DNA from: Sphagnum magellanicum
Lineage: Eukaryota; Streptophyta; Sphagnopsida; Sphagnales; Sphagnaceae
DNA length: 64,000 nucleotides
Assembly: GCA_021904315.1 (NCBI GenBank)
Contig: CM038923.1
Span: 15,940,038 to 16,004,037 of the forward strand
Direction: 5' to 3'
The translations under genes were made by a program, and so were the position numbers. Below, piece by piece: positions 9,601 to 64,000 of the stretch. Position 1 is the stretch's first letter; each line of letters starts with the position of its first letter. Under the pieces are notes generated by a model. It had not been told where the DNA came from. It did not search any database and saw nothing but the letters and a program-made list of their open reading frames with translations.

Positions 9601-9604
9601 CAGG

Positions 9605-10604: not shown

Positions 10605-10740
10605 AGATGTAATTTCCCCAGATGTAACTGACTCCAGAGAAAAAAAAAATCAGGGGCAGTTTGATTTTTTGAGGCGTTTCCCTAGATGTAACTGACTTAA
10701 AAGAAAAAAGAAATCAGGGGCAGTCTGATTTTTTGAGGCA
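10605..10740 (+). repeat. Two copies of a 70-bp unit inside the Helitron-like element
   Basis: CCTAGATGTAACTGACT (first copy CCCAGATGTAACTGACT), an A-rich run, AATCAGGGGCAGT and CTGATTTTTTGAGG occur at about 10615-10675 and again at 10680-10740. Confidence 0.7.
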
Positions 10741-10767
10741 AAAGATTTGGTAGACTAGAAAAAAAAG

Positions 10768-10955
10768 ATTTAGGCCTTAGACAGCCTAGAATTTATTTAT
10801 TTATTTATTTTTATATTGACCAAGATTACCTTTTTTTTCTTTTAGCTACTATCCGTCCTGATTAAGGGGAGGGATGAAATGTCCGTTCGGCTTGATGACG
10901 GGACGGATTTAGGGGAAGACCAAAAAAAATAAATTTAGGCCTTGGACAGCCCAGA

Positions 10956-10999
<44 letters not shown>

Positions 11000-11170
11000 T
11001 ATTGACCAAGACTACCTTTTTTTTCTTTTAGCTACTGTCCGTCCCAATTAAGGGGATGGATGAAATGTTCGTCCGACTTGATGACGGGACGAATTTTGGG
11101 GAAATTTTTTTTCTTTTAGCTACTATCCGTCCCGATTAAGGGGATGGATGAAATGTCCGTCCGGTTGGAT
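10768..11170 (+). repeat. Three partial copies of an about 160-bp unit with a 38-T tract
   Basis: The unit contains TTTAGGCCTTRGACAGCC, a T-rich tract, TATTGACCAAGA, CTTTTAGCTACT, GTCCGTCC and GATGACGGGACG. Copies start near 10768 and 10932, with a shortened third copy from about 11107. The second copy has expanded its T tract to 38 T (10961-10998). Confidence 0.75.
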
Positions 11171-11305
11171 GATCACATAATAATAATAAAAATAGAAAAC
11201 ACATAAAAATAAAAAAATAAAAAAGTTAAAAGTTTCTAAAACGCGAACCAAGTTTAAAGAAATCGAAGGACTTCACAGTGGCCGAAGGTCACGGGCACCC
11301 ACTAT

Positions 11306-12089
11306 TACATATAAAACCCATAACACTAAACAGACTAAAGTTATGCAGTCCCAAAAGTGGCTAACTCATGGCTCACAATTGGGTCTTTTGGTGTCTTTGC
11401 CCACCCACCATGTTAAGATCAATTTAGAGTATAGTGATGGAAGGTTCTCTTTAACACAATAGTGGGAGGCAATATTGGTGACCTAAGACTAATTACACAT
11501 CTTCCAAAATAAATAATAATAATAAAAAATAAAGGAAAAACACCTAGCAAAGGAACAAAAGAAGAAGATAAAAAAAGGAGCAAAGTCTAAACAAAAGACC
11601 ACATCGAAAAACATAAAATGCACAATGGGGAGCTTTAGGAGGAGAAATCAAGAAACTTAGGACCCAAACCCATCCATCACTAATAGCACAAAACAAGTCA
11701 TACATAGAAATGGGTGGAAAACTTGGAAAGGCACCAAGCCTAGAAGAGCTTTTTCTTATTGCCACAATTGTTCGTTATAGGATAATGGTGGTTTGAATTT
11801 GTTGAAGAACCATCAACACCCCCTACCTATAAAATGAAACATAAAATTGAAAAAAGAGGACCTTCAAAGCCCTTTTCATCGACCATGCCATGTTAGCACA
11901 TCAAGGAAAAAAATTGTCCACCTACTGGTGTAACCATCTAAATATCTCTATTACTAGAGGGATGAAATCATTCTCAGGGTGTCGGTTGCAATATGACAAA
12001 ACCTTTGCTTGATCTACAATCTTGCAACCACTCCTTAAGAAGAAATGGCACATGAAATAAGATTTACACAAGTCAGGTCATCAATGATT
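11306..12089. other. Intergenic DNA, no gene seen
   Basis: This follows the Helitron-like element. The open stretch at 11544-11765 (minus) has no recognisable motif. Confidence 0.5.
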
Positions 12090-27944: not shown

Positions 27945-28127
27945 ATGGGAAAGGGAGGGGGAAAGTGTGCGAGCAGGGAGAGGAGCGGGAGTTCAGTGGC
28001 GTCCCGGACGCCGCGCCTTCCAGCGAAGCCTCATCACGTAACGCCTCATCAATCTAGCGCCAAGGCCAAGGATGTGGATTGGGCTGCAGATACGGATTCT
28101 GCCACCTTGGAGCCCTTCATCCCCAAG
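27945..28127 (+). other. Coding exon 1 of the giant repeat protein (61 codons)
   Basis: It begins MGKGGGKCASRE and ends in EPFIPK; it is basic and Ser/Pro-rich with GC-rich codons, unlike the AT-rich later exons. The donor is AAG followed by GTATGT, a near-perfect plant 5' splice site, and it falls exactly on a codon boundary (phase 0). The frame stays open past the donor to about 28265, but that extension has no sign of coding and is read as intron. Gly2 and Cys8 resemble a lipidation start, but Lys3 is disfavoured for N-myristoylation. Confidence 0.75.
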
Positions 28128-31100
28128 GTATGTCTTTCTCTCTTCTGCGATAGCTTTCTAGTTGTATCTAAGACACTTCTGTGTCGTTATGGAGCTCTGG
28201 CAGTTCTGTGTTCTGTTGTTGGTTTGGTAGCGTTTGACGACCTTGCCAAATCGGCAGTTTGTTGACCAGGTTCAATCTACAGGGCCCACCCTAATTACAA
28301 TTTAGGTTTAGGGTTTGCCCAAATCAAGGTTGACCTAAAAGGGATTTCCGATCTGATAATGAGTTGAGTGACGAAGTTTCCACTCAACCATCCTTGAATG
28401 TGTAATTCGAGTTTTAGATCAAGTACTCTCATACCATGAAGGCACCCATGGCCCCCATTACATATTCTATGTTTTTTTCTTCTTCTTTTTATGGTCCTTA
28501 CTAGGTAGGAAAGTTCAATCTGGAACACCCATTCTAGCTTAGTTATTGCAAAAACTTAGCTCCATGAAGGAAATGCAAATAATAACCTTTTCCCTTGTCA
28601 CTACCAAGGGTATTGCCTCCTCTTGGAAGTGGCCTTGCTCCAACTTTGCTACATTGATATCTTAGGAAACCCCTATCCCAAGATGAAGGTGCTTAACTTT
28701 GAAGTTCAAATGGAATCCAATGTATCCATCCTAGAAATACTTCCAAGATATACCTAATGAATCTCAAAGTTGACCATCATCATTTTCGACAAATCATCAT
28801 GCAACACATTTTTTGTTCCCTTAAAGGAAATTTTTGTGCCAACCTAAATAGTTGTGTTGTATGAAAAACATGAAATTTGAAGGAATTGTATTGTGAATTT
28901 AGTTACCTTTATATAGAAGTGACATACAAACTAATGGGTGGAAGGTTGGTTTGGCAGAAAATGGAGTCTTCTCAAGTTGAAGAAGATGATGACATTGATA
29001 CAAATGTTATGTTTGATCAACAAGAGATACATTCACATGTGTCAGACTCTGGTAGAAGACTATTGGGATCACCAACCTCCGCAGTGCAAAGTGCATATAA
29101 CACTGCAATGCCAAGCCCATCTCGATCTTTTTCAAGTGGAGGTGGACGAAGCCCTGATGCTTTCCATGATGCACCTGATGAACTACAACATTTCCAAGCT
29201 TCACCCAATCACCCAAAGCACATTAAGTCTGGTGTTGGTGTGTCTCAACAAGGAGGGGTCATTGCTAATGCATCCCAATCATCTTTCGACTCTACACGAC
29301 CAAGGTTCCAAGATGATGATGATCTATTTCCCTCCAAGGAAACCATCATCCCAACCTCAAGCAATAATTCTGCAGTAATGCACCTTGGTCTCCGAAAAAG
29401 GGCCACCTCGTTTCATGCCACTCCATCTGAATCCAAAAATGTTTCATCCACATGTAACACAAAAGCTCCAATTGTTGGTGGAGGTGGTGAGGAAACATCA
29501 TCCCCCATAACTATAATTTCACAAACAAGTTTTGGGTTGCCACAACCTCAATTGGGCGTTACTCCACAACCACAAGAACCAAGTGAACAAGCTACAAACA
29601 TCGAAGTTGCAACCCCATCAAAACAAAAGGTAGACATGAAGGAAGGTGTGCGCACACATGAATCAACAATGCCAAAGGAAAGTGGCAAGTTGAGTGACAA
29701 TTGGGAACTTGTGCCACGAGAACTTGGGTCTGGAAGTTCTTCACCGGTGTTGGTGACAATGTCCAAATCAAGCAAAGCAAGTGAAGTGGATCCAACCTCA
29801 CAACTTGAAGCAATGAAAACAGGTAAATTTATAAATATTCATACATCCCAATATCTTTGTAATTCATCAAAACTTAAAAGATTCTTTGATGACACAACAA
29901 ATTGACTCATTACATGGAATCTTACATTTCATACGTCCCATTTTGAGGAACATCTTATTAATGTATTCTAGAAGAATATTAACTTCAAATAACTTGTTTT
30001 CCAAAGTGCATGAAATCACTTTGCCATTTCTTCATTAATTTTTTTAAATGGTGAATTGAATTACTTTCTTAAACCAACTTGTTTTGGCAACAACATATTG
30101 GATCTTAAAAGGTAGTATATTTTCAAAAAAGTTAGAATAATTTACAACGTGAATCTTCAAATTTTACAAGTTTTAGTTTTGTTAAACAATAATATAATTT
30201 CACTATGTGAATCCTCCATCAACTTTCCACATAATGGTGTCATAATATTCATATAAGATGATTTAGCATAAGAGGTGTTTGGATTTTACTATTTAGGTTA
30301 TTTCTATGGGTGATGGTCTGTCACTTTGTGAGTGACTCTCATGAGGTTATGACTGCACTCATTGTCATGTTACCTTTAATTGATGTTATGGAGATTTCTC
30401 TGCAACTTCATGGATCTTTACTATTTAGGTTATTTCAAGGAATTTTGGTCAATGTACATAGACATTATTACGAAACTTTGTTACATGGCATTAAATAGAT
30501 GACATGGAGAATTAAACAACTTGGTTTTGACAGAAAACTCGAAGAATTTGAAATTCAAAGGAAAGGAAATAGAAGATGATTCTCAACAACCAACAAATGA
30601 ACAAGAGGAGAACATGAAGTCAATGGCAAGCAAGTCGTTCCCTTCAGAACATGTGGTAGAAGGTCTACCAAAGGAAAAATCAGATTCAAGACAAGTACAA
30701 AATGATCAACCTTTTGAAGAAGAACCTGATACTGTGAGGTCTCTTGGAAGTGACCAATCTGATGACATTGAAACACATTCAATCAACGGTGATGGTGGGG
30801 GCTATGTTTTTCTAGGCTCACCTCAACATGAAGAATCACATGACATTGAAAAACTGAAGGATGATAAGGATTTCAACAAGGGGGTTCCCATTGAAACAAT
30901 GTTTGAGGAACAACACATCCCTTCTAATAAGGAATTTCAAGTGGAAGATGTTCAACCCGCATCTATTGAGGAGGAGGAAGAGACTCCAATTGTTAAGGAA
31001 AAGAAAAGCACTCCCATTCAAACACTTGATGAACAATCGCAACATGGGGACTTAAAGGAACCATTTGAGATTGCATTGGAACATGAAGTGGAACCCGAGG

Positions 31101-34100
31101 AAGTGGAACCAAGTTTCAAAGAGGTATCAAGATCTTTGGAGCTTCCAATTAGCCAACCTATTGAGAAAGCACAAGACGATGTTGGAGTCGAAGCTCCAAG
31201 GGAAGGCCAAAATAATTTCGAGGTACGAGAGCCCCAAATTGAAGCTCCAATTATAGAGCCCCAAGTTCGGAAATCTGAGGTTCAGGATAAAGAGGTTCTA
31301 ATCCTTCAGGAACAACACATTCCTTCTACTGAGAAATTTGAAGCGGAAGATGTGAAACCCACATCTATTGAGGAGGAGGAGGAAACTCCAATTGTCAAGG
31401 AAGAAAAGAACATTCCCAATCAAACACTTGATGAACTTCCACAACATGGAGATGTAGAAGAACCATTTGAGATCCCAACAGAAAAGGTGGAACCGAGTTT
31501 TGAGGAAGTACGAAGATCCTTGGAGCTTCCAATTAACCAACATGTTGAACAAAAACAACACGATGTTGGAGTTGAAGCTCCTTCGGAAGCTCACGATGTC
31601 TCGGTGGCAGAACAACCCAAAATTGAACCTCCAATTATGGAGCCCCAAGTCCAAGAATCCGAGGTTCAGGGCAATGATGCTACAATCTTTGAAGAACAAC
31701 AAATCCCTTTTACAAATGAACTAGAACTGGAAGATGTGAGACCCACATCTATTGAGGAGCAGGAAGAGACTCCAATTGTCAAGGAAGAAACGAAGGCTCC
31801 AATTCAAACACTTGACGACCTTCCACAAGACAATGATGTAGAGGCACCATTCGAGGTCCCAACAAAAAAGGAGGTCGAACCCAAGGAGGTTGAACCAAGT
31901 TTTCAGGAGGTACCTAAATCCTTGGAACTTCCAATTCACCACCCCATTGAAGAAACCCAAGGTGATGTTGGAGTCAAAGCCTTGCAAGAAGGTCAACATG
32001 TTTCTGAGTTAGAGGAGCCTCAGATTTTTCACAAATTTGAAGCTCAAGACAAAGAGGCTCCACCACTTGGAGAGCCATATGTCCCTTCTATTGAACAACC
32101 ACAAGATGGAAATGTCAAACCCACATCTATTCAAGAGGAGGAAGAGACTCCAATTGTCAAGGAAGAGATGAGCACTCCCATTCAAACACTTAACGAACTT
32201 CCACAAAACAATGATGGAGAACCACCATTTGAGGTCCCAACAAAAAAGGAGGTCAAACCCAAGGAAGTGGAACCAAGTTTTGAAGACATACCAAGATCCT
32301 TGGAGCTTCCAATTAGCCACCCCATTGAAGAAACCCAAGGTGATGTTGGAGTCCAGGCCTTGCTTGAAGGTCAAGATGTTTCTGAAGTAAAGGAGCCCCA
32401 AATTCTTCGCAAGTTTGAAGTTCAAGACAAAGAGGCTCCAACACTTGAAGAACCATATGGCCCTTCTACTAAACAACCGCAAGATCAAGATGCCAAGCCC
32501 ACATCTATTGATGAGGAGGAAGATACGAAGGCTACAATTCAAACACTTCACAAACTTCCACAAGACAGTGACTTAGAGGCAGAATTTGAGGTCCCAATAG
32601 AAAAGGAGGTCGAACCCAAGGAGGTGGAACCAAGTTTTGACAAGGTACCTAGATCCTTGGAGCATCCAATTAGGCACCCCGAAGAAACCCAAGGCAATGT
32701 TGGAGTTGAAGCATTGCTCGAAGGTCAAGATGTCTTTGAAGTAGAGGAGCCCTCCATTGAGGCTCCAATTATGGACCCCAAAATTCTTCAACAGTTTGAG
32801 GCTGAAGATAAAGAGGCTTCAACATTTGAAGAGCCATATGTCCCTTCCACTGAACAACCACAAGATCAAGATGTCAAACCCACATCTATTGAAGAGGAGG
32901 AAGAGACTCCAATTGTCACAGAAGAAACGAGAGCTACCATTCAAGCACATGACAAACTCCCACAAGATGGTGATGTAGAGGCACCATTTGAGCTCCCAAA
33001 AGAAACGGAGGTCCTACCCAAAGAAATGGAACCAAGTTTTGAAGAGGTACCAATATCCTTCGACCTTCCAATCGCCCACCCCGTCAAGGAAATGCAGGGT
33101 GATGTTGGAATCGAAGCTTTACTTGAAGGTCAACATGTCTCCAAGGTAGAGGAGCCCCAAATTGAGACTCCAATTTCCGAGCCCCAAATTCCTCACACCT
33201 TTGAAGCTCAAGAAAAAGAACATCCAACACTTGAGGAGCCATATGTCCCTTCAATTGAAACGCCGCGAGGTGAGGATGTGACACCGACATTTCTTGAAGA
33301 GGAGGAAGAGACTCCAATCGCCAAGGAACATACGAGTGACTCCATCCAAACACTTCATGAGCTTCCACAAGACATTGATACGGAGGCACCATTTGAAGTC
33401 CCAACAAAACAAAAGGTGGAACTTGAAGAAGCCAAACCAAGTTTGGAAGAGGTACCAACATCTGTGGAGCTTCCAACTAGCCATTCCATTGAAGAAACCG
33501 AAGGCGATCTTGGGTTCAAAACCTTGCTTGAAGGTCAAGATGACTTTGAGCTAAAAGAACCCCAAATTCACGGTCCAATTACGGAGCCCCAAATTCTTGA
33601 AAAGTTTGAAGCTCAAGAGAAGGAGGCTCCAATAGTTGAAGAGCCATATGTCCCTTCTACTAAACAACCGCAGGATCAAGATGTGAAACCCACATCTATT
33701 GAGGAAAAGGAAGACACAAGCGCTTCCATTCAAGGACTTCACGAACTTCCACACGACAGTGAAGTCGAGGCACCATTTGAAGTCCCGACAACAAAGGAGG
33801 TCGGACCCGAGGAAGTGGAACCAAGTTTTGAAGAGGTACCAAGATCCTTCGACCTTCCAATTGCCCACCCCATCGAGGAAACGCATGGCGATGTTGCAAT
33901 CGAAGCTTTACTTGAAGGTCAACATGTCTCCGAGATAAAGGAACCCCAAATTGACACTCCAATTACAGCGCCCCAAATTCCTCACACCTTTGAAGCTCAA
34001 GAAAAGGAACATCCAACACTTGAGGAATCATATGTCCCTTCAATTGAAACACCACGAGGTGAGGATCTGACACCGACATCTCTTGAAAACGAGGAAGAGA

Positions 34101-37100
34101 CTCAATTTGCCAAGGAACATACCACTGACTCCATCCGAGAACTTCATGAGATCCCACAAGACATTGATACGGAATCACCATTTCAAGTCCCAACAGAACA
34201 AAAGGTGGAACTTGAGGAAGCCAAACCAAGCTTGGAAGAGGTACCAACATCCGTGGAGCTTCCAATTAGCCATTCCATTGAAGAAACCAAAGGCGATGTT
34301 GGGCTCAAAACCTTGCTTGAAGGTCAAGATGACTTTGAGGTACAGGAACCCCAAATTGAGGGTCCAGTTACGGAGCCCCAAATTCATGAAGAGTTTCAAG
34401 CTCAAGAGAAGGAGGCTCCCATAGTTGAACAGCCATATGTCCCTTCTACTGAACAACCGCAGGATCAAGATGTGAAACCCACATTTATTGAGGAAAAGGA
34501 AGACACTTCGATCCCGAGGGAAGAAACAAGCGCTTCCATTCAAGGACTTCACGAACTTCCACACGATGGTGATGTGGAGGCACCATTGGAGGTCACAACA
34601 AGAAAGGAGGTCAAACCCAAGGCAGCAGAACCAAGCTTTGAAGCGGTACCAAGATCCTTGGACCTTCCAATCGCCCACCCTGTCGAGGAAACACACGGCG
34701 ATGTTGGAATCGAAGCTTTACTTGAAGGTCAACATGTCTCTGAGATAAAAGAACCCCAACTTGAGACTCCAATTATAGAGCCCCAAATTCCTCACACCTT
34801 TGAAGCTCAAGAAAAGGAACCTCCGACACTTGAGGAGCCATATGTCCCTTCAATTGAAACGCAACGAGGTGAGGATGTGACACCGACATCTCTTGAAGAG
34901 GAGGAAGAAACTCCAATCGCCAAGGAACATACGAGTGATTCCATCCAAACACTTCATGAGCTTCCACAAGACATTGATACGGAGTCACCATTTGAAGTCC
35001 CAACAGAACAAAAGGTGGAACTTGAGGAAACCAAACCAAGTTTGGAAGAGGTCCAAACATCCGTGGAGATTCCAACTAGCCATTCCATTGAAGAAACCGA
35101 AGGCAATGTAGGGCTCGAAACCTTGCTTGAAGGTCAAGATGACTTTGAAGTACAAGAACCCCAACTTGACCGTCCAATTATGGAGCCCCAAATTCTTGAA
35201 AAGCTTGAAGCTCAAGAGAAGGAGGCTCCCATAGTTGAAGAGCCATATGTCCCTTCTACTAAACAACCGCAAGATCAAGATGTGAAATCCACATCTATTG
35301 AGGAAAAGGAAGACACTTCGATCCCCATGGAAGACACAAGCGCATCCATTCAAGGACTTCATGAACTTCCACACGACGGTGATATCAAGACAACATTTGA
35401 CGTCCCAACAAGAAAGGAGGTCGCACCCGAAGAAGTGGAACCAAGTTTTGAAGTGGTACCAAGATCCTTGGACCTTCCAATTGCCCACCTTGTCAAGGAA
35501 ACGCAGGGCGATGTTGGAATCGAAGCTTTACTTGAAGGTCAACATCTCTTTGAGGTAAAGGAACCCCAAATTCCTCACACTTTTGAAGCTAAGGAAAAGG
35601 AACCTCTCACACTTGAGGAGCCATATGTCCCTTCAATTGAAACGCCACCAGGTGAGGATGTGACACCGACATCTCTTGGAGAGGAGGAGGAGACTCCAAT
35701 CGCCAAGGAACATACGAGCGATTCCATCCAAACACTTCATGAGCTTCCACAAGACATTGATACGGAGGCACCATTTGAAGTCCCAACAGAACAAAAGGTG
35801 GAACTTGAGGAAGCCAAACCAAGTTTGGAAGAGGTACCAACATCCATGGAGCTTCCAACTAGCCATTCCATTGAAGAAACCGAAGGCGATCTTGGGCTCG
35901 AAACCTTCCTTGAAGGTCAAGATGACTTTGAGGTAAAGGAACCCCAAATTGAGGGTCCAGTTACGGAGCCCCAAATTCATGAAAAGCTTGAAGCTCAAGA
36001 GAAGGAGGCTCCAATAGTTGAAGAGCCATATGTCCCTTCTACTAAACAACCGCAGGATCAAGATGTGAAACCCACATTTATTGAGGAAAAGGAAGACATT
36101 TCGATCCCGAGGGAAGAAACAAGCGCTTCCATTCAACGACTCCACGAACTTCCACGCGACGGTGATGTGGAGGCACCATTGGAGGTCACAACAAAAAAGG
36201 AGGTCGGACCCAATCAAGTGGAACCAAGCTCTGAAGAGGTACCAAGATCCTTGGAGCTTCCAATTGCCCACCCCATCGCGGAAACACATGGCGATGTTGG
36301 AATCGAAACTTTACTTGAAGGTCAACATGTCTCCGAGATAAAGGAGCCCCAAATTGAGACTCCAATTACGGAGCCCCAATTTCCTCACACCTTTGAAGCT
36401 CAAGAAAAAGAACGTCCAACACTTGAGGAGCCATATGTCCCTTCAATTGAAACGCCACGAGGTGAGGATGTGAAAGCAACATCTCTTGAAGAGGAGGAAA
36501 AGACTCCAATCGCCAAGGAACATACGAGTGACTCCATCCAAACACTTCATGAGCTTCCAAAAGACATTAATACGGAGTCACCATTTGAAGTCCAAGCAAA
36601 ACAAAAGGTGGAACTTGAGGAAGCCAAACAAGGTTTGGAAGAGGTCCCAACATCCGTGGAGCTTCCAACTAGCGATTCCATTGAAGAAACAGAAGGCGAT
36701 GTAGGGCTCGAAACCTTGCTTGAAGGTCAAGATGACTTTGAGGTCACAGTACCCCAAATTGACGGTCCAATTACGAAGCCCCAAATTCCTAAAAAGTTTG
36801 AAGTCCAAGAGAAGGAGGCTCCCATACTTGAAGAGCCATATGTCCATTCTACTGAACAACCGCAAGATCAAGATGTGACACCCACATCTATTGAGGAAAA
36901 GGAAGACACTTCGATCCCCACGGAACACACAAGCGCTTCCATTCAAGGACTTCACAAACTTCCCCAGGACGATGATGTGGAGGCACCATTTGAAGTCGAA
37001 GCAACAAACGAGGTCGGACCCGAGGAAGTGGAACCAAGTTTTGCAGAGGTACCAAGATCCTTGGACCTTCCAATTCCCCACCATGTCGACAAAACGCAGG

Positions 37101-52100: not shown

Positions 52101-55100
52101 GCGATGTTGGGCTCGAAACCTTAGTTGAAGCTCGAGAGCACTTCGAAGTAAAGGAACCCCAAATTGAGGGTCCAGTTATGGAGCCCCAAATTCATCAAGA
52201 GTTTGAAGCTCAAGAGAAGGAGGCTCCCATAGTTCAAGAGCCAAATGTCGCTTCCACTGAACAATTGCAGGATCAAGATGTGAAGCCCACATCTGGTGAG
52301 GAAAAGGAACACACCTCGATCCCCACGGAAGAAACAAGCGCTTGCATTCAAGGACGTAATGAACTTGCCCAGGACGGTGATGTGGAGGCACCATTTGGGG
52401 TCGAAGCAAGAAAGGAGGTCCGAACTAAGGAAGCAAAACCAAGTTTTGAAGAGGTACCAAGATCCTTCGAACTTCCAATTGCCCCCTCCGTCGAGGAAAC
52501 CCAGTACGATGTTGGAACCGAAGCTTTACATGAAGCTCCACATGTCTTTGAGTTAAAGGAACCCCAAATTGAGACTCCAATTACGGAGCCCGAAATTCCT
52601 CACACCTTTGAAGCTCAAGAAAAGGAACCTCCGACACCTGAGGAGCCATATGTCCCTTCAATTGAAACGCCACCAGGTGAGGATATGACACCGACATCTC
52701 TTGAAGAGGAGGAAGACACTCTAATCGCCAAGGAACATACCACTGACTCAATCCCAACACTTCATGAGCTCCCACAAGACATTCATACGGAGTCACCATT
52801 TGAAGTCCCAAGAGAACAAAAGGTGGAATTTCAGGAAGCCAAACCAAGCTTGGAAGAGGTACCAACATCCGTGGAGCTTCCAACTAGTGATTCCATTCAA
52901 GAAAACGAAGGCGATGTTGGGCTCGAAACCTTGGTCGAAGGTCAAGATGACTTTGAAGTAAAGGAACCCCAAATTGAGGGTCCACTTACGGAGCCCCAAA
53001 TTCATGAAGAGTTTGAAGCTCAAGAGAAGGAGGCTTCGAGAGTTCAACGGCGATATGTCGTTTTTACTAAACAATTGCAGGATCAAGATGTGAAGCCCAC
53101 ATCTATTGAGGAAAAGGAAGCCACTTCGATCCCCACGGAAGACACAAGCGCTTCCATTCAAGGACTTCTTGAACTTCCCCAGGATGTTGATGTGGAGGCA
53201 CCATTTGAGGTCGAAGCAAGAAAGGAGGTCGGACCCGAGGAAGTGGAACCAAGTTTTGAAGATTTACCAAGATCCTTGGACCTTCCAATTGCCCACCCCG
53301 TCGAGGAAACGCAGGGCGATGTTGGAATCGAGGCTATACTTGATGGTCAACATGTCCCCGAGGTAAAGGAACCCCAAATTCAGACTCCAATTAGCGAGCC
53401 CAAAATTCCTCCCACCTTTGAAGCTCAAGAAAAGGAACCTCCAACACTTGAGGAGCCATATGTACCTTCAATTGAAACGCCACGAGGCGAGGATGTGACA
53501 TTGAAATCTCTTGAAGAGGAGGAAGAGACTCCATTCGCCAGGGAACATACCACTGACTCCATCCCAACACTTCATGATCTCCCACAAGACATTGATACGG
53601 AGTCACCATTTGAAGTCCTAATAGAAAAAAAGGTGGAACTTGAGGAAACCAAACCAAGCTTGGAAGAGGTACCAACATCCGTTGAGCTTCCTATTAGCGA
53701 TTCCATTCAAGAAACCAAAGGCGATGTCGGGCTTGAAGCGTTGGTTGAAGGTCAGGATGACTTTGAAGTAAAGGAACCCCAAGTTGAAGGTCCAGTTACG
53801 GAGCCCCAAATTCATGAAGAGTTTGAAGCTCAAGAGAAGGAGGCTCCCACAGTTCAAGAGCCATATGTCGCTTCTATTGAGGAATTACAGGATCAAGATG
53901 TGAAACCCACATCTATTGAGGAAGAGGAAGAGACTTCGATCCCCACGGAAGACACAAGCGCTTCCATTCAAGGACTTCATGAACATCCCAAGGACGGTGA
54001 TGTGGAGGCACCATTTGAGGTCGAACCAAGAAAGGAGGTGGGGCCCGAGGAAGTGGAACCAAGTTTTGAACAGGTACCAAGATCCTTGGACCGTCCAATT
54101 GCCCACCCTGTCGAGGAAACACAGGGCGATGTTGGGATCGAAGCTTTACATGAAGCTCCACATGTCTCCGAGGCAAAGGAATGCCAAATTGAGACTCCAA
54201 TTACGGAGCCCGAGATTCCTCACACCTTTGAAGTTCAAGAAAAGGAACTTCCAACACTTGAGGAGCTATATCTCCCTTCAATTGAAACGCCACGAGGTGA
54301 GGATGTAACAACGACATCTCTTGAAGAGGAGGAAGAGACTCCAATCGCCAAGGAACATACCACTGACTCCATCCCAACACTTCATGACCTCCCACAAGAC
54401 ATTGATATGGAGTCACCATGTGAAGTCACAACAGAACAAAAGGTGGAACTTGAAGAAGCCAAACCAAGCTTGGAAGAGGTACCAACATCCGTGGAGCTTC
54501 CAATTAGCGATTCCATTCAAGAAAACGAAGGCGATGTTGGGCTCGAAACCTTGGTTGGAGGTCAAGATGACTTTGAAGTAAAGGAACCCCAAATTGAGGG
54601 TGCAGTTACGGAGCCCCAAATTCGTGACGAGTTTGAAGCTCAAGATAAGGAGGCTTCCAGAGTTCAAGAGACATATGTTGTTTCTAGTGAACAATTGCAT
54701 GATGAACATGTGAAACACACATCCATTGAGGAAAAGGAAGACACCTTGATCCCCACAGAAGACACAAGCGCTTCCATTCAAGGACTTCATGAACTTCTCG
54801 AGGACGGTGATGTGGAAGCACCATTTGAGGTCGAAGCAAGAAAGGAGGTCAGACCCGAGAAAGTGGAACCAAGTTTTGAGGATGTACCACGATCCTTGGA
54901 CCTTCCAATTGCCCACCCCGTCAAAGAAACGCAGCGCGATGTTGGAATCGAAGCTGTACCTGATGGTCAACATGTCCTCGAGGTAAAGGAACCGCAAATT
55001 GAGATTCCAATTACGGAGTCGACAATTCCTCACAGTTTTGAAGCTCAAGAAAAGGAACATCCAACACTTGAGGAGCCATATGTCCCTTCAATTGAAACAC

Positions 55101-58100
55101 CACGAGGTGAAGATTTGACACTGACATCTCTTGAAGATGAGGAAGACACTCAATTCGCCAAGGAACATACCACTGACTCCATCCGAGAACTTCATGAGCT
55201 CCCACAAGACATTGATACGGAGTCACCATTTGAAGTCCCAACAGAACAAAAGGTGGAACTTGAGGAAGCCAAACCAATCTTGGACGAGGTACCAACATCC
55301 GTGGAGCTTCCAATTAGCGATTCCATTCAAGAAACCGAAGGCGATGTTGGGCTCGAAGCCTTGGTTGAAGGTCAAGATGACTTTCAAGTAAAGGAACCCC
55401 AAATTGAGAGTCCAATTACGGAGCCCCAAATTCATGAAGAGTTTGAAGCTCAAGAGAAGGAGGCTCCCATAGTTGAGGAGCCATATGTCGCTTGTATTGA
55501 ACAATTGCAGGATCAACATGTGAAACCCACATCTATTGAAGAAAAGGAAGACACTTCGATCCCCACGGAAGACACAAGCGCTTCCATTCAAGGACTTCAT
55601 GAACTTCCCCAAGACGGTGATGTGGAGGCACCATTTGAGGTTGAAGCAAGAAAGGACGTCGGACCCGAGGACGTGGAACCAAGTTTTGAAGATGTACCAA
55701 GATCCTTGGACCTTCCAATTGCCCACCCCGTGGAAGAAACACTGGGCGATGTTGGAATCGGAGCTTTACATGAAGCTCCACATGTCTCCGAGGTAAAGGA
55801 ACCCCAAATTGAGACTCCAATTCCGGATCCAGAAATTCCTCACACCTTTCAAGCTCAAGAAAAGGAACCTGCCACACTTGAGGAGCCATATGTCCCTTCA
55901 ATTGAAATGCGAGGTGAAGATGTGACACCGACATCTCTTGGAGAAGAGGAAGAGACTTTAATCGCCAAGGAACATACCAGTGACTCCATCCCAACACTTC
56001 ATGAGCTCCCACATGACAATGATACGGAGTCACCATGTGAAGTCCCAACAGAGCAAAAGGTGGAACTTGAGGAAGCCAAACCAAGCTTGGAAGAGGTACC
56101 AACATCCGTGGAGCTTCCAATTATTGATTCCATTCAAGAAACCGAAGGCGATGTTGGGCTCGAAACCTTGGTTGAAGGTCAAGATGACTTTGAAGTAAAG
56201 GAACCCCAAATTGACGGTCTAGTTACGGAGCCCCAAATTCATGAAGACTTTGAAAATCAAGAGAAGGAGGCTCCCATAGTTGAAGAGCCATATGTCGCTT
56301 CTACTGAACAATTGCAAGATCAAGATGTGAAACCCACATCTATTGACGAAAAAAAAGACACCTCGATCCCCACAGAAGACACAAGCACTTCCAGTGAAGG
56401 ACCTCATGAACTTCCCCAGGACGGTGATGTGGAGGCACCATTTGAGGTCGAAGCAAGAAAGGAGGTCAGGCGTGAGGAAGTGGAACCAAGTTTTGAAGAG
56501 GTACCAAGATCCTTGGAACTTCCAATTGCCCACCCCGTCGAGGAAATGGAGGGCGATGTTGGAATCGAAGCTTTATATGAAGGTTCACATGTCTCCGAGG
56601 TAAAGGAACCCCAAATTGAGACTCCAATTACGGAGCCCAAAATTCCTTACACCTTTGAAGCTCCAGAAAAGGAACCTCCAACACTTGAGGAGCCATATGT
56701 CCCTTCAATTGAAACGCCACGAGGTGAAGATGTGACACCGACATCTCTTGAAGAGGAGGAAGACACTCCAATCGCCAACGAACATACCACTGACTCAATC
56801 CCAACACTTCATGAACTCCCACAAGACATTGATACGGAGTCACCATTTGAAGTCCCAATAGAACAAAAGGTGGAACTTGAGGAAGCCAAACCAAGCTTGG
56901 AAGAGGTACCAACATCCGTGGAGCTTCCAATTAGCGATTCCATTCAAGAAATCGAAGGCGATGTTGGGCTGGAAACCTTGGTTGAAGGTCAAGATGACTT
57001 TGAAGTAAAGGAACCCCAAATTGACGGTCCAGTTACGGAGCCCCAAATTCATGAAGAGTTTGAAGCTCAAAAGACGGAGGCTCCCATAGTTCAAGAGCAA
57101 TATGTCGCTTCTACTGAACAATTGCAGGATCAAGATGTGCAACCCACATCTATTAAGGAAAAGGAAGACACCTTGATCCCCATGGAACACACAAGCGCTT
57201 CCATTCAAGGACTTCATGAACTTCCCCATGACGGTGATGTGCAGGCACCATTTGAGGTCGAAGCAAGAAAGGATGTCCGACCCGAGGAAGTGGAACCAAG
57301 TTTTGAAGATGTACCAAGATCCCTGGACCTTCCAATTGCCCACCCCGTCGAGGAAACGCAGGGCGATGTTGGAATTGAAGCTGTACTTGATGGTCAACAT
57401 GTCCCCGAGGTAAAGGAACCCCAAATTGAGACTCCAATTATGGAGCCGGAAATTCCTCACACCTTTGAAGCTCAAGAAAAGGAACCTCCAACACTTGAGG
57501 AGCCATATGTCCCTTCAATTGAAATGCCACGAGGTGAGGATGTGACATCGAAATCTCTTGAAGAGGAGGAAGAGACTCCAATCGCCAAGGAACATACCAC
57601 TGACTCCATCCCAGCATTTCATGAGCTCCCACAAGACATTAATACGAAGTCACCATGTGAAGTCGCAACGCAACAAAAGGTGGAACTTGAGGAAGCCAAA
57701 CAAAGCTTGGAAGAGGTACCAACATATGTGGAGCTTCCAATTCGCGATTCCATTCAAGAAACCCAAGGTCATGTTGGGCTCGAAACTGTCTTTGAAGGTC
57801 AGCATGACTTTAAAGTAAAGGAAGCCCAAATTGATGGTCTAGTTACGGAGCCCCAAATTCATGAAAAGTTTGAAGTTCAAGAGAAGGAGGCTCCCATAGT
57901 TGAAGAACCATATATCGCTTCTACTAAACAATTGCAGGATCAAGATGTGAAACCCACATCTATTGAGGAAAAGGAAGACACCTCGATCCCCACGGAAGAA
58001 ATAACCGCTTCCATTCAAGGACTTCATGAATTTGCCGAGGACGGTGATGTGGAGGCACCATTGGAGGTTGAAGCAAGAAAGGAGGTCAGGCCTGAGGAAG

Positions 58101-61100
58101 TGGAACCAAGCTTTGAAGAGGTACCAAGATCCGTGGAACTTCCAATTGCCCACCCCGTCGAGGAAACGCAGGACGATGTTGGAATTGAAGCTTTACATGA
58201 AGGTCCACGCGTCTTCGAGGTCAAGGAACCCCAAATCCAGACCCCAATTACGGAGCCCGATGTTGCTCACACCTTTGAAGCTCAAGAAAAGGAACCTCCA
58301 ACACTTGAGGAGCCATATGTGCCTTCAATTGAAACGCCACGAGGTGAGGATGTGACACCGACATCTCTTGAAGAGGAGGAAGACACTCCAATCGCCAAGG
58401 AACATACCACTGACTCCATCCCAACTGTTCATGAGCTCCCACAAGACATTGATACGGAGTCACCATTTGAAGTCCCAACAGAACAAAAGGTGGAACTTGA
58501 CGAAGCCAAACCAAGCTTGGAAGAAGTACCAACATCCGTGGAGCTTCCAATTAACGATTCCATTCAAGAAACCGAAGGCGATGTTGGGCTCGAAACCTTG
58601 GTTGAAGGTCAAGATGACTTTGAAGTAAAGGAACCCCAAATTGAGGGTGCAATTACGGAGCCCCAAATTCATGAAGAGTTTGAAGGTCAAGAGAAGGAGG
58701 CTCCCATAGTTCAAGAGCCATATGTCGTTTCTACTGAACAATTTCTAGATCAAGATGTGAAACCCACATCTATTGAGGAAAAGGAAGACACCTCGATCCC
58801 CACGGAACACACAAGCGCTTCCATTCAAGGACTTCATCAACTTCCCGAGGACGGTGATTTGGAGGCACCATTGGAGGTTGAAGAAAGAAAGGAGGTCAGG
58901 CGTGAGGAAGTGGAACCAAGTTTTGAAGAGGTACCAAGATCCGTGGAACTTCCAATTGCCCACCCCGTCGAGGAAACACAGGACGATGTTGGAATCGAAG
59001 CTTTACATGAAGGTCCACATGTCTCTAAGGTAAAGGAACCCCAAATCCAGACCCCAATTACGGAGCCCGATGTCGCTCACACCTTTGAAGCTCAAGAAAA
59101 GGAACCTCCAACACTTGAGGAGCCATATGTCCCTTCAATTGAAACGCCACGAGGTGAGGATGTGACACCGACATCTCTTGAAGAGGAGGAAGACACTCCA
59201 ATCGCCAAGGAACATACCACTGACTCCATCCCAACACTTCATGAGCTCCCACAAGACATTGATACGGAGTCACCATTTGAAGTCCCAACAGAACAAAAGG
59301 TGGAACTTGAGGAAGCCAAACCAAGCTTGGAAGAGGTACCAACATCCGTGGAGCTTCCAATTAGCGATTCCATTCAAGAAACTGAAGGCGATGTGGGGCT
59401 CGAAACCTTGGTTGAAGGTCAAGATGACTTTGAAGTAAAGGAACCCCAATTTCACGGTCGAGTTACGGAGCCCCAAATTCATGAAGCGTTTGAAGCTCAA
59501 AAGAAGGAGGCTCCCATAGTTGAAGAGCCATATATCGCTTCTACTGAACAATTGCAGGATCAAGATGTGAAACCCACATCTATTGAGGAAAAGGAAGACA
59601 CCTCGATCCCCTCGGAACACACAAGCGCTTCCATCCAGGGACTTCACGAACTTCCCCAGGACGGTGATGTGGAGGCACCATTTGAGGTCGAAGCAAGAAA
59701 GGAGGTTGGACGCGAGGAAGTGGAACCAAGTTTTGAAGATTTACCAAGATCCTTGGACCTTCCAATTGCCCACCCCGTCGAGGAAACGCAGGGCGATGTT
59801 GGAATCGAGGCTATACTTGATGGTCAACATGTCCCCGAGGTAAAGGAACCCCAAATTGAGACTCCAATTAGCGAGCCCAAAATTCCTCCCACCTTTGAAG
59901 CTCAAGAAAAGGAACCTCCAACACTTGAGGAGCCATATGTGCCTTCAATTGAAATGCCACGAGGTGAGGATGTGACACCGAAATCTCTTGAAGAGGAGGA
60001 AGACACTCCAATCGCCAAGGAACATACCACTGACTCCATCCCAACACTTCATGAGCTCCCACAAGACATTGATACGGAGTCACCATGTGAAGTCCCAACG
60101 GAACAAAAGGTGGAACTTGAGGAAGCCAAACCAAGCTTGGAAGAGGTACCAACATCCGTGGAGCTTCCAATTAGGGATTCCATTCAAGAAACCGAAGGCG
60201 ATGTTGGGCTCGAAACCTTGGTTGAAGGTGAAGATGACTTTGAGTTCACGGAACCCCAAATTGGCGGACCAATTACGAAGCCCCAAATTCTTGAAAAGTT
60301 TGAAGGTCAAGAGAAGGGGGCTCCCATAGTTGAAGAGCCATATGTCCCATATACTGAAGAACCGCAGGATCAAGATGTGAAACGCACATCTATTGAGGAA
60401 AAGGAAGACACCTCGATCCCCACGGAAGACACAAGCGCTTCCATTCTAGGACTTCATGAACTTCCTAAGGACGGTGATGTGGAGGCACCATTTGAGGTCG
60501 AAGCAAGAAAGGAGGTCCAACTCGAGGAAGTGGAACCAAGTTTTGAAGAGGTACCAAGATCCTTGGAACTTCGAATTGCCCACCCCATCGAGGAAATGCA
60601 TGGCGATGTTGGAATCGAAGCTTTACATGAAGCTCCACATGTCTCTGAGGTAAAGGAACCCCAAATTGAGACTCCAATTACGGAGCCCCAAATTCCTCAC
60701 ACCTTTGAAGCTCAAGAAAAGGAACCTCCAACACTTGAGGAGCCATATGTGCCATCAATTGAAACACCACGAGGTGAGGATGTGACACCAACATCTCTTG
60801 AAGAGAAGGAAGAGACTCCAATCACTAAGGTACATACCATTGACTCCATCCGAACACTTCATGAGCTCCCACAGCACATTGATATGGAGTCATCATTTGA
60901 AGTCCCAAGAGAAAAAAACGTGGAACTTGAGGAAGCCAAACCAAGCTTGGAAGAGGTACCAACATCCGTGGAGCTTCCAATTAGCCATTCCATTGAAGAA
61001 TCCGAAGGCGATGTTGGGCTCGAAACCTTGGTTGAAGGTCAAGATGACTTTGAGGTAAAGGAACCCGAAATTGGGGGTTCACTTACGGAGCCCCAAATTC

Positions 61101-64000
61101 TTCAAAAGTTTGAAGCTCAAGAGAAGGAGGCTCCCATAGTTGAAGAGCGAGATGTCCCTTCTACTGAACAACCACAGGATCAAGATGTGAAACCCACATC
61201 TATTGAGGAAAGGGAAGACAGCTCGATCCCCACGGAACACACAAGCGCTTCCATTCAAGGACTTCACGAACTTCCCCAGGACGGTGATGTGGAGGCACCA
61301 TTTGAGGTCAAAGCAAGAAAGGAGGTCGGACTTGAGGAAGTGGAACCAAGTTTTGAAGAGGTACCAAGATTCTTGGACCTTCCAATTGCCCACCTTGTCG
61401 AGGAAACGCAGGGCAATGTTGGAATCGAAGCTTTACTTGATGGTCAACATCTCTCCAAGGTAAAGGAACCCCAAATTGAGACTCCAATTACAGAACCCCA
61501 AATTCTTCACAGCTTTGAAGTTCAAGACAAAGAACGTCCAACACTAGAAGAGCCATATGTCCCTTCTACTGAAACGCCACAAGGTGAGGATGTGAAACCC
61601 ACATCTTTTGAAGAGGATGAAGAAACTCCAATCACCAATGAACATACAAGTGATTCCATTCAAACACTTCATGAACTTCCACAAGACATTGATACGGAGA
61701 CACCATTTGAAGTCCTAACAGAAAAAAAGGTGGAACTTGAGGAGGCCAAACCAAGTTTGGAAGAGGTACCAACATCCTTGGACCTTCCAATTAGCCATTC
61801 CATTGAAGAAACTGAAGGCGATGTTGGTGTCGAAGCCTTGCTTGAAAGTCAAGATGCCTTCGAGGTACAGGAGCCCCAAATTGAGGCTCCAATTATGGAG
61901 CCCCGAATTCTCGACAAGTTTGAAGCTCAAGAGAAAGAGGCTCTAACACTGGAAGAACTAGATTTCCGTTCTACTGAACAACTACAAGATCGAGGTATCA
62001 AACCCGCATCTATTGAAGAGGACGAACAAACTCCAATCGTCAAGAAAGACTTGAGCGCTCCCATTCACGGACTTCATGAACTTCCACAAGACAATGATGG
62101 AGAGGCGCCATTTGAGGTCCAAAGAAGAAAGGACATCGAACCCCAGGAAGTGGAACCAAGTTTTGAAGAGGTACCAAGATCTTGGGAATTTCCAATTAAT
62201 GAACCTACTGAGGGAACCGAAGGCAATGTTGGAGTCGAAACCTTGCAAGAAGGTCAACATGTTTTTGAGGTAGACGAGCCCCAAATTGAGGCTCCAATTA
62301 CAAAGCCCCAAATTCTTCCCAAGTTTGAAGCTCAAGACAAAAAGGGTCCAACACTTCAGGAACAATATGTCCTTTCTACTGGACAACCACAAGATGAAGA
62401 TCTCAAACCCACATCTAGTGAGGAAGAGGAAAAAACTCCAATTGCCAAGGAAGATACAAGTGATCGCATTCAAACACTTGACCAACTTCCACAGGACAGT
62501 GACGTGGAGGCACCATTTGAAGTCCCAACTGAAAAGAAGGTCAAACCCAAGGAAGCGGAACCAAGTTTTGAAGAGGTACCAAGATCCTTGGAGCTTCCAA
62601 TTAGTCACCCCATTGAGGAAACCCAAGGTGATGTTGGGGTCGAAACCTTCCCTAAAGGTCAAGATGTCTCCAAGGTAAAGGAGCCCCAAATTGAGGCTCC
62701 CATTATGGAGCCTCAAATTCCTCAAAAGTTTGAAGCTCAAAAGAAAAAGGCTCCAATAGTTGAAGAGCCATATGTCCTTTCTACTGAACAACTGCAAGAT
62801 CAAGATGTCAAACCCACATCTATTCAGGAACAGGAAGAGACTCCAATAATCAAGGAAGACACGAGTGTTCCCATTCAAGGACTTCATGAACCTCCAAAAG
62901 ACAGTGATGTAGAGGCACCATTTGAGGTCCCAACAAGAAAGGAGGTCGAACATGAGGAAGTGGAACCAAGTTTTGAAGAGGTACCGAGATCCTTGGAACT
63001 TCCTATTAGCCACCTCGTTGAAGAAACCCAAGGCGATGTTGGAGTCGAAGCCTTGCTTGAAGGTCAACATGTCTTCGAAGTAGAGGAGCCCCAAATTGAG
63101 GCTCCAATTACGAAGCCCCAAATTCCTCGCAACTTTGAAGTTCAAGACAAAGAAGGTCTAGCATTTCAAGAGCCATATGTCCTTTCTACTGAACAATCGC
63201 AAGTTCAAGATGTCAAACCCGCTTCTATTGAGGAGGAGGAAGAGATTCCAATCTCCAAGGAGGATACGAGCGATCCCATTCAAACACTTTATGAACTTCC
63301 ACAAGATAGTGATGTGGAGGCACCGTTTGATGTCCCAATAGAAAAGAAGGTCAAACCTGAAGAAGCGGAACCAAATTTTGAAGAAGTACCAAGATCCTTG
63401 GAGGTTCCAATTAACCACTCCATTGAGGAAACCCAAGGCCATGTTGGGGTTGAAGCCTTGCTTGAAGGTCAAGATGTCTCTAAGGTAAAGGAGCCCCAGA
63501 TTGAGGCTCTAATTACGGAGCCCCAAATTCTTCACAAGTTTGAAGCTCAAGAGAAAGAGGCTCCATCACTTGAGGAGCCATATGTCCCTTCTCCTGAGCA
63601 ACCACAAGATGAAGATGTCAAACCCACATCTATTGAAGAGGAGGAAGAGACTCCAATTGTCAAGGAAGAGATGAAGGCTCCCATTCAAACACTTGATGAA
63701 CTTCCACAAGACGGTGATCTAGAGGCACCATTTGAGGTCCCAATAGAAAAGGAGGTCAAACCCAAGGAGGTGGAACCAAGTTTTGACGGGGTACCTAAAT
63801 CCTTGGAGCTTCCAATTAGCCACCCCATTGAAGAAACCCAAGGCAACGTTGGAGTTGAAGCATTGCTTGAAGGTCAAGATGTGTTCAAGGTAGAGGAGCC
63901 CTCACTTGGGGCTCCAAGTATGGAGCCCCAAATTCTTCAACAGTTTGAAGCTCAAGACAAAGGGGCTTCAACATTTGAAGAGCCATATGTCCCTTCTATT
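27945..64000 (+). CDS. Giant acidic Glu/Pro/Val-rich tandem-repeat protein, 3 exons visible, 3' end outside window
   Basis: Join 27945-28127, 28958-29822 and 30534-64000 (partial). The joined coding length is 34,515 nt, exactly 11,505 codons, ending in phase at the window edge. The start ATG has G at -3 and G at +4, a good plant context. Residues 1-493 are non-repeated, rich in Ser, Pro, Gly and Gln with acidic patches. From residue 494 the protein is about 82 units of about 135 residues. The consensus units are about 22-25% Glu and 11-14% Pro, with few aromatic residues and almost no Cys, which predicts an acidic, extended, disordered chain. I see no signal peptide, membrane segment or enzyme motif. 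The family is not recognised. The PEVK-like composition allows a spacer, scaffold or ion-binding role, but that is inference. The reading frame and exon structure are well supported; expression and the C-terminus are not known. Confidence 0.88.
28128..28957 (+). other. Intron 1 (830 bp)
   Basis: The intron starts GTATGT and ends TTTGGCAG. A CTAAT branch-point-like motif lies at 28931-28935, about 25 bases before the acceptor. Removing it joins Lys61 to the Lys-Met-Glu-Ser-Ser start of exon 2 in phase 0. A GGCCCA site II core and a telo-box lie about 160-190 bases into it. Confidence 0.7.
28283..28316 (+). promoter_or_regulatory. Site II core (GGCCCA) plus telo-box (TTTAGGGTTT) in intron 1
   Basis: GGCCCA is at 28283-28288 and TTTAGGGTTT at 28307-28316, 18 bases apart. 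In plants this pair is known near the 5' ends of genes expressed in dividing cells, where TCP-type and telo-box-binding proteins act on it. Here it sits within 200 bases of exon 1, a usual place for intronic enhancer elements. Both motifs are short, so chance occurrence is possible. Confidence 0.35.
28958..29822 (+). other. Coding exon 2 of the giant repeat protein (288 codons plus 1 nt)
   Basis: It encodes residues 62-349 and the first base of codon 350. It starts KMESSQVEEDDDIDTN, then a Ser/Pro/Gly/Gln-rich low-complexity stretch with a basic RKRATS patch near the middle, and a single tryptophan at residue 310 in DNWELVP. The end is ACAG followed by GTAAAT, a good donor in phase 1. The reading frame stays open on both sides of the exon (28877-29905), so the edges rest on splice-site sequence and on phase agreement with exons 1 and 3. 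No known domain is recognised. Confidence 0.75.
29823..30533 (+). other. Intron 2 (711 bp)
   Basis: The intron starts GTAAAT and ends TTTTGACAG. Joining 29822 to 30534 completes a GAA codon (residue 350) and enters the exon 3 frame without a shift. The intron is AT-rich with stops in all frames. The short open stretch at 30310-30498 inside it has no coding character. Confidence 0.7.
30965..33292 (+). repeat. N-terminal block of the array: six diverged coding units (378-405 bp)
   Basis: Units start at 30965, 31367, 31751, 32129, 32507 and 32888, with lengths 402, 384, 378, 378, 381 and 405 bp. Each begins near an I-E-E-E-E-E-T-P-I-V-type motif, passes through a P-Q-D-x-D and P-F-E-V motif, V-E-P-S-F, E-L-P-I, G-D-V-G-V-E, and ends near E-E-P-Y-V-P-S. 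The units are more diverged from each other than the central ones and lack the strict A/B alternation, as expected of older array edges. All length differences are multiples of three. Confidence 0.85.
33293..62011 (+). repeat. Central block: 71 coding units of about 405 bp alternating A and B (810-bp dimer)
   Basis: Type A (135 residues) has EEEEETPIA at 2-10, LHELPQD at 21-27, SPFEVP at 32-37, KPSLEEVPTSVELPIS at 48-63, GDVGLETL at 71-78 and FEAQEKEAP at 105-113. Type B has TSIPTE at 7-12, SIQGLHELPQ at 17-26, EAPFEVEARKEVG at 31-43, EVPRSLDLPIAHP at 53-65, GDVGIEAL at 71-78 and EEPYVPSIETP at 116-126. A and B alternate through this block. Length variants are -21 (near 33.70 kb), -27 (35.55 kb), +21 (44.20 kb), -3 (44.96 kb), -3 (50.83 kb) and -3 (55.91 kb). 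Confidence 0.9.
47656..49348 (+). repeat. Nearly identical neighbouring 810-bp dimers inside the array
   Basis: Bases 47656-48538 match 48466-49348 at an offset of 810. I see only two differences in 883 bases (47655 bounds the tract; differences at 48247/49057 and 48484/49294). Other dimers differ from each other at many more sites. This is the youngest visible duplication in the array, or an assembly artefact. Confidence 0.8.
62012..64000 (+). repeat. Right-hand block: four full diverged units and one partial, running off the window
   Basis: Units start at 62012, 62417, 62822, 63227 and 63632, each 405 bp, the last cut by the window edge. They resemble the N-terminal block more than the central dimers: they use V-K-P-K-E or V-E-P-Q-E, S-L-E-L-P-I-S-H-P and G-V-E-A-L-L-E-G-Q. 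The last one closely matches the unit at 32507-32887, including E-E-P-S, I-L-Q-Q-F and A-S-T-F-E-E-P-Y. Confidence 0.85.

Follow-up and report, generated by a model that had tools for sequence, protein, structure and literature searches.

A peat-moss gene with one exon expanded into a long, open array of acidic repeats

The window, a 64,000-nucleotide stretch from a peat-moss genome of 438,994,042 bases, carries on its forward strand the greater part of a gene whose first three exons join in phase. The features are listed below; the last three lie outside the window, and these exons are modelled from sequence signs.

27945..28127, forward strand: exon 1, 61 aa, starting MGKGGGKC, donor AAG|GTATGT
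28958..29822, forward strand: exon 2, a head free of repeats that contains DDDLFP and SDNWELV
30534..64000, forward strand: window part of exon 3, 0 stops; the exon continues outside the window to 65372, donor TGG|GTAAGT
30534..30925, forward strand: non-repeat head opening exon 3, containing ...GDGGGYVFLGS...PIET...
30926..32998, forward strand: left array edge with units 1-6, which are of the monomer type and carry in-frame deletions; unit 1 partial
32999..62122, forward strand: core of the array, units 7-78, alternating types A and B in dimers of 270 aa (810 nt)
47549..49168, forward strand: recent duplication; units 43 and 45 are 6 nt apart, units 44 and 46 are 1 nt apart
62123..64000, forward strand: right array edge with units 79-83, monomer type again; unit 83 partial in the window
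65727-65780: exon 4, modelled from frame and splice signs alone
66159-67553: exon 5, with a weak acceptor, ...CATTGAAAG|CG
67776-68008: exon 6, modelled from frame and splice signs alone

The original prediction held that the three window exons form a single frame still open at the window edge, and this proved correct. Joined, 27945-28127, 28958-29822 and 30534-64000 make 34,515 nt, or 11,505 codons, with 0 stops, and both introns are bounded by GT..AG. The joins matter, because keeping intron 1 or intron 2 brings in 13 or 12 in-frame stops, respectively. Both joins fall at the same positions in two database records: P0002, from a JGI source, with 99% identity, and P0003, an NCBI record of Sphagnum tenellum, with 74% identity over the query. 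Within the window, the two other forward frames of exon 3 contain 241 and 1,058 stops. Coding on the opposite strand was rejected: a 387-aa minus-strand ORF (61982-63145) overlies the array, and the three minus frames of exon 3 hold 168, 444 and 322 stops. Downstream extension, which had been proposed as a check, located the end of the frame at a stop at 65387, the donor at 65372, three short exons and a C-terminal module. Exon 3 totals 34,839 nt, the donor of intron 4 is TAG|GTGAGG, and the model extends about 4 kb beyond the window. The predicted six-exon product has 12,522 aa, a mass of 1.40 MDa and a pI of 4.16. We conclude that a real protein-coding gene lies here, for which the genome yielded one paralogue.

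As had been proposed, the bulk of the product consists of acidic tandem repeats. Tandem Repeats Finder reported a period of 405 with 77.8 copies across 32517-64000, and at the protein level the periods are 270 and 135 aa. The array comprises about 86 units of 135 aa, of which about three and a half lie outside the window. Adjacent units of the same type differ by about 11% of their DNA on average, and unit 83 at the right edge is 84% identical to unit 6 at the left. Higher-order repeat arrays such as alpha satellite likewise have a homogenised multimer core with divergent monomers at the flanks; the peat-moss array, unlike alpha satellite, stays open in one reading frame. Each unit carries a net charge of -26.7 ± 3.6, and lysine is scarce (4.9%). 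AlphaFold gave no predicted fold for a 270-aa dimer (30 rows; pLDDT 46.7, pTM 0.10), and the array is predicted to be an intrinsically disordered, strongly acidic chain. Relatives enter the same kind of array: the head of P0002 and that of P0003 lead into first units of the array, with P0002 99-100% identical to window units 2-4, while the first units of P0003-P0005 have near-full-length best matches to window units at 34-69% identity.

The ends of the protein are not repetitive and are shared with the one paralogue found, C4, a 1,540-aa protein with the head and tail of the giant (the C17 copy) and without the array. Exon 1 is 59% identical between the two, with MGKGGGKC unchanged, and its N-terminus is basic (net +6 across residues 1-45). 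Exon 2 is 48% identical to the C4 copy at the amino acid level and 69% at the DNA level, and the head opening exon 3 is 41% identical (first 100 residues, 103-column alignment). Between P0003 and P0006, the exon 2 region is 29% identical in amino acids. At the other end, a C-terminal module, VDQTWEQxKxNWKxF...KVVGLPWPP, has 33 of 49 residues identical in C17 and C4 (dN 0.22, dS 1.02), and this motif is present at two places in the genome. AlphaFold of P0007, from 7 near-identical rows, returned a mean pLDDT of 27.2, with values <50 across tail residues 987-1053, and so gave no model of the tail that could be used. Comparison with the C4 paralogue revealed no counterpart of exons 4 and 6, no period in the C4 copy (best self-match 0.098) and no match between its body and the three array units tried (best E 0.35). 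Within this two-gene Sphagnum family the 135-aa tandem array is therefore confined to the C17 copy and does not define the family. The array-free sister provides a built-in control, in the same genome, for what the array adds.

The family had gone unrecognised in the original prediction, and it remained so within the pieces scanned. Nothing exceeded the curated Pfam cut-offs in seven pieces: 0 families came from exon 2 or from the frames of exon 5, exon 6 and C4, and the array, sampled by three exon 3 pieces of 2,000 aa, gave sub-cutoff matches only. The best of the Pfam matches, DUF4998, was rejected (E 0.013; 15.5 bits against a cut-off of 29.1). No Ig, Fn3 or kinase domain was found in these seven pieces. 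NCBIfam returned 0 families for 4/4 proteins, with exon 1 covered only within P0002, and a sequence search of the PDB gave one match, for the exon 5 frame, at E 0.93. Searches among proteins yielded at least 5 matches among the best 7,990 candidates by words in common (about 338-1,074 aa), only P0003 and P0002 from 3,869 scored candidates (about 580-1,848 aa) and, for the tail, 7 matches at 91-100% identity from 30 scored candidates (about 847-2,695 aa). A scan of viral contigs and genome contigs with P0002 produced 1 and 7 pattern matches, respectively, with 0 confirmed. A possible likeness of the tail to ATI-type ATG8-interacting proteins was considered and dropped.

The plant origin that had been proposed is borne out by the source, a peat moss, and the figure of 11,505 codons stands; the accompanying claim that this exceeds the largest known plant proteins does not, since the 2019 size survey in PMC6681478 lists longer algal proteins, from Volvox (22,244 aa) and Chlamydomonas (21,004 aa). 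The 12,522-aa model exceeds the land-plant entries shown there, which include a Punica granatum protein of 11,234 aa. The same survey lists Sphfalx0133s0012.1 of Sphagnum fallax, an "unknown protein" of 9,126 aa and pI 4.05. Judged from this published size listing, it is probably the orthologue of the giant: it is similar in genus, extreme length, acid pI (4.05 vs 4.16) and lack of a known family; it is shorter, and the entry as shown in PMC6681478 gives its size without anatomy, repeats or family. Among the matches listed from open-licence papers, the gene is otherwise undescribed. Another close comparison is RBB1 (At5g40450) of Arabidopsis, likewise very large for a plant protein and lacking known domains. 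It is plant-specific, has 2,890 aa, which places it outside the size range of our tail search, and is supported by a full-length transcript, with tagged protein in soluble and membrane fractions; most of its matches have only a 75-aa C-terminal region in common (PMC4411111). Unlike the giant, RBB1 has no tandem array reported in the portion of PMC4411111 available, and the corresponding portion of PMC5103610, on a cotton RBB1 gene, makes no link to the peat-moss gene.

If unit substitutions were allowed to drift, stops should have accumulated. In simulations of 72 units at the observed divergence, 53.2 ± 7.4 stops appeared (minimum 34 in 300 runs), compared to 0 observed, and the idea of a chance open frame was accordingly rejected. 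When 79 n/n+2 unit pairs were aligned as DNA, all 21 gaps were multiples of three bases. Constraint on the residues themselves is slighter. Across 70 n,n+2 core pairs, pN/pS was 0.755 compared to 0.864 ± 0.033 in 60 neutral runs which, together with the absence of stops, indicates that nonsense is strongly and residue change weakly opposed. The share of nonsynonymous changes that alter charge was mildly low (0.383 vs 0.411 ± 0.011). In recent pairs the ratio of nonsynonymous to synonymous changes was 3.13 compared to a neutral 3.46 ± 0.17, near noise by this measure and compatible with an array that is merely tolerated. Older A-B comparisons showed clearer constraint (ratio of nonsynonymous to synonymous counts 3.18 vs a neutral 5.06 ± 0.18), and Trp/Cys and changes in hydrophobicity were avoided.

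We consider it probable, at roughly 60%, that this is a real gene in which one exon has swollen to about 86 units that form an acidic, disordered spacer between non-repeat ends. The simplest route to such an array would be unequal crossing-over, acting first on the 405-nt (135-aa) unit and at a later stage on an 810-nt dimer; the product would be an acidic disordered polymer of about 12,500 residues, its array carrying about -27 per unit. How it might act is a more tentative matter. In what seems to us the likeliest mechanism, though one we would not yet bet on, the basic MGKGGGKC... N-terminus would anchor the chain, perhaps via N-myristoyl and S-acyl groups (a putative lipidation suggested by the motif), and the C-terminal module (TWEQLKSNWKNFKGRPDIHITNKVRQAAREAKEKARKVVGLPWPP), which is basic, contains Trp and may be helical, would bind a partner. 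The array would then serve as an extended, charged entropic spacer or brush, keeping the two attachment sites apart or crowding them, so that length, charge and open frame would be kept while the exact sequence matters little. The PEVK segment of titin, a long, disordered, repetitive chain rich in Pro, Glu and Val, acts as an entropic spring between anchored ends. The giant array resembles it as a long disordered repetitive chain between two ends; it is far more acidic, has few lysines and lacks an Ig or Fn3 match in the pieces scanned. A structural or scaffold role, as originally suggested, is plausible, and expression, localisation, anchoring and spacing are what we infer for the protein. 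A bolder version, which we regard as rather unlikely, would make it a land plant's 1.4-MDa acidic polyelectrolyte, a satellite-like coding array selected for length, charge and frame, anchored at both ends, adjustable in length and present in only one of two sisters that may stem from a whole-genome duplication. Were this true, the length of the array might differ among peat mosses, which dominate peatlands, and through it some physical property of the cell might be tuned. Genomes of two Sphagnum species are published (PMC9946827), which allows a comparison of array length between species and with their physiology. If made in full, the protein would surpass in size the land-plant proteins shown in PMC6681478 and would present a case of a satellite-like higher-order repeat inside a coding exon.

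The strongest competing explanation, unlikely yet serious, keeps the gene and denies the array a function: a coding minisatellite would have grown by slippage and crossing-over and been tolerated as harmless, with selection purging stops and frameshifts because these would cut off a needed C-terminal module. Such neutral baggage would fit a core pN/pS just about 13% below neutral where stops are fully absent, a C4 sister that does without the array, and array starts that vary among relatives. It fits less well with the constraint in the older A-B comparisons, and a very large transcript and protein are presumably costly.

It is improbable that splicing removes most of the array, or that the gene is hardly expressed, leaving a mature protein far below 12,500 aa. 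The frame would survive the loss of whole 405-nt units in whatever number, and exon 3 contains 32 GGTGAG and 31 AGGT[AG]AG sites, with 31 of the latter type in A units, at RGEDV-type codons. Splicing within the array is possible because these sites look like the donor of intron 4, and the six strong donor hexamers counted did not include GTGAGG. However, those six have 0 copies in exon 3 compared to 12.6 ± 3.4 in 200 synonymous shuffles, P0002 and P0003 run from head into array, and the lack of stops means that the sequence of the array has been read in frame.

Very improbable, in our estimate, is a multivalent docking chain that would collect many ATG8 or similar partners via xLIR-like cores. 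PSFEEV/PSFEDV of the A and edge units fits the ATG8-interacting (xLIR) consensus, and YVFL and WELV cores are present in the head. The pattern matched 39 times compared to 15.8 ± 3.8 in 200 shuffles, once (GGYVFL) in residues 1-480 and otherwise in the array or its end, and a looser core occurs in 31/36 A units and 2/36 B units. This excess was rejected as evidence because repeats are not independent. Furthermore, most B units lack the aromatic residue, position 14 is not one of the columns with a conservation of at least 0.93 across all units, and the WELV core fails the full pattern.

Finally, inflation of a short array by mis-assembly has the slightest chance. The assembly, as described in the available part of PMC9946827, used PacBio CLR reads from 20-kb libraries, which are shorter than the array, so the copy number may be off, and units 43-46 are near-identical. 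However, the difference of about 11% between adjacent same-type units suffices to place long reads, an array of this kind also starts in the separate records P0002-P0005, and the acidic 9,126-aa S. fallax model is in print (PMC6681478).

The giant gene has a modelled end, an array-free sister in the same genome and a satellite-like array. The original prediction that three exons (27945-28127, 28958-29822 and 30534-64000) join in one frame was borne out: the joined 34,515 nt hold 11,505 codons and no stops, the frame is open throughout, and both introns have GT..AG borders. Retaining intron 1 adds 13 in-frame stops and retaining intron 2 adds 12. Two database proteins have exon joins at the same positions: P0002 (932 aa, JGI source, 99% identical) and P0003 (1,056 aa, an annotated Sphagnum tenellum protein). 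Because the introns contain stops, we infer that P0002 should represent either a spliced transcript or a gene model. Beyond the window edge, the frame of the array-bearing exon 3 stays open as far as a stop at 65387 (extended window coordinates). Following it downstream located the end of the frame and modelled C-terminal exons, and the gene is larger than predicted.

Features at the 3' end of the giant gene (extended window coordinates)
65372, plus strand: exon 3 donor, TGG/GTAAGT, upstream of the stop
65727-65780, plus strand: exon 4, in phase, placed by frame and splice signs only
66159-67553, plus strand: exon 5, in phase, acceptor weak
67776-68008, plus strand: exon 6, in phase, placed by frame and splice signs only

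The full model has 6 exons with intron phases 0,1,1,1,1 and 37,569 nt of coding sequence, giving a protein of 12,522 aa, 1.399 MDa and pI 4.16. A minus-strand open frame of 387 aa lies opposite the array at 61982-63145; we interpret it as the repeat's shadow.

The accompanying claim of a size record does not hold for plants in general. A survey of very large plant-kingdom proteins in 145 species includes a protein of 22,244 aa in Volvox and one of 11,234 aa in Punica, but the 12,522-aa model exceeds the land-plant entries seen there (PMC6681478). The survey also contains Sphfalx0133s0012.1 of Sphagnum fallax (9,126 aa, pI 4.05, 'unknown protein'), which is probably this giant gene in that species and is described in its entry by size only (PMC6681478). 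Closest in style is RBB1 of Arabidopsis, according to excerpts of its description a plant-specific protein of 2,890 aa without domains, with a role in vacuole bulbs and a supported full-length transcript of 8,957 bp; its ~40 matches have only a 75-aa C-terminal region in common (PMC4411111).

The acidic tandem repeats were likewise as predicted, with 135-aa (405-nt) units and a net charge per residue of -0.198 over the array. Cyclic profile alignment divided residues 481-11,505 into 83 units, the first and last partial; gaps in them measure 1-9 aa, and a single insertion has 7 aa. Because further unit starts lie outside the window (residues ~11,556, 11,684, 11,791 and 11,883, the last units being short), the total comes to ~86. 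Two unit types, A and B, alternate in units 7-78 (identity A-A 0.80, B-B 0.77, A-B 0.50). Units at both edges are monomer-like, with an identity of 0.65 between left units 2-6 and right units 79-82 and of 0.84 between units 6 and 83. Edge-type units reappear inside the window before its end, and the array terminates shortly beyond it. Judged from the sequence, its anatomy is that of a higher-order satellite, with a homogenised dimer core and more divergent monomers at the edges. Units 43 and 45 differ by 6 nt and units 44 and 46 by 1 nt; by this measure units 43-46 are a recent duplication.

The sister gene, on C4, was located as follows.

C4:22987564-22994106, minus strand: array-free paralogue (L008-L013), 4 exons, 1,540 aa, 172 kDa, pI 5.02

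It is 59% identical to the giant gene (the C17 copy) in exon 1 and 48% in exon 2, and its C-terminus is the C17 tail module (33/49 identical). No tandem period was found in this paralogue, and three array units tried against its body gave no significant match (best E 0.35). Just ahead of the C17 tail, an acidic segment (residues ~11970-12320) aligns with the body of the C4 protein in several registers (best E 3.7e-8). Both copies thus appear to contain degenerate acidic repeats of older origin; the 135-aa unit may have arisen from these, although the units themselves gave no significant match to the C4 body. The last coding block measures 1,053-1,057 aa in four of seven C4-type relatives (P0007, P0008, P0009 and P0013), and its length is therefore steady in these; the remaining three (P0010-P0012) have 930 aa and share in-frame gaps, one of ~107 columns. 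Because dS between the two non-repeat heads is 0.66 and the reported Sphagnum Ks peaks of two genome duplications lie at 0.406 and 0.643 (PMC9946827), the pair fits the older duplication, with the proviso that the dS and Ks methods differ. A further protein, P0006 (383 aa, source label 'lgn'), matched the giant-gene head (E 7e-14), is 29% identical to P0003 and may belong to a different moss. Protein searches over certain length ranges, one of them with a capped candidate list, gave no relative from outside the mosses among the candidates scored.

That the array is a tolerated coding satellite is a rival reading, which we hold to be only slightly less likely than the main one given below. Relative to simulations that, like the shuffles below, take units as independent and so overstate significance, no stops were seen over 72 units against 53.2 +/- 7.4 under drift at the observed divergence (300 runs, minimum 34). 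All 21 of 21 gaps in DNA alignments of 79 n/n+2 unit pairs were multiples of three bases, and n versus n+2 differences by codon position were 1,121, 951 and 1,337. For 70 core pairs pN/pS was 0.755 versus a neutral 0.864 +/- 0.033 (60 runs, minimum 0.805), and the plain-count ratio 3.13 versus 3.46 +/- 0.17; residue constraint in array pairs is weak. Older A-B pairs had a count ratio of 3.18 versus a neutral 5.06 +/- 0.18 and avoided Trp/Cys (z -10.0), hydrophobicity changes (z -4.5) and charge changes (z -3.6), with proline changes near neutral (z -2.0). Six strong donor hexamers occur 0 times in exon 3 versus 12.6 +/- 3.4 in synonymous shuffles. All 31 donor-like AGGT[AG]AG sites in exon 3 lie in A units at RGEDV-type codons, where they are possible in-frame exitrons. 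We read the array as under selection for an open frame and general make-up rather than exact sequence.

Our main reading, held tentatively at a probability of about 0.35, is that the giant protein would be a disordered, acidic chain serving as a two-ended spacer or brush. AlphaFold predicted no fold for the 270-aa A+B dimer with 30 rows (pLDDT 46.7, pTM 0.10), and the array is 11% Pro. A denatured-chain formula gives the 12,522-residue chain a contour length of ~4.5 micrometres, with a radius of gyration near 54 nm. The N-terminal 45 residues carry a charge of +6 and the tail module +7; helices in the latter are present only in an AlphaFold model of very low confidence. The N-terminal start, MGKGGGKC, is identical in both paralogues and may be a lipidation site.

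Upstream of the giant gene, window 1-27900 looks gene-poor as far as long open frames go: it contained no stop-to-stop frame >166 aa. No tRNA was found in the window and no Rfam match in 1-31000. A/T-rich tandem repeats, commonly at 25-nt spacings, occupy 5473-6084 (17 copies of a 109-nt reference). Degenerate ~303-nt repeats extend over 7819-9855, with 2.8 copies at 7913-8761 and more near 9625-9855, and short duplications (191-nt, 64-nt and 126-nt copies) lie at 179-540 and 10613-11191.
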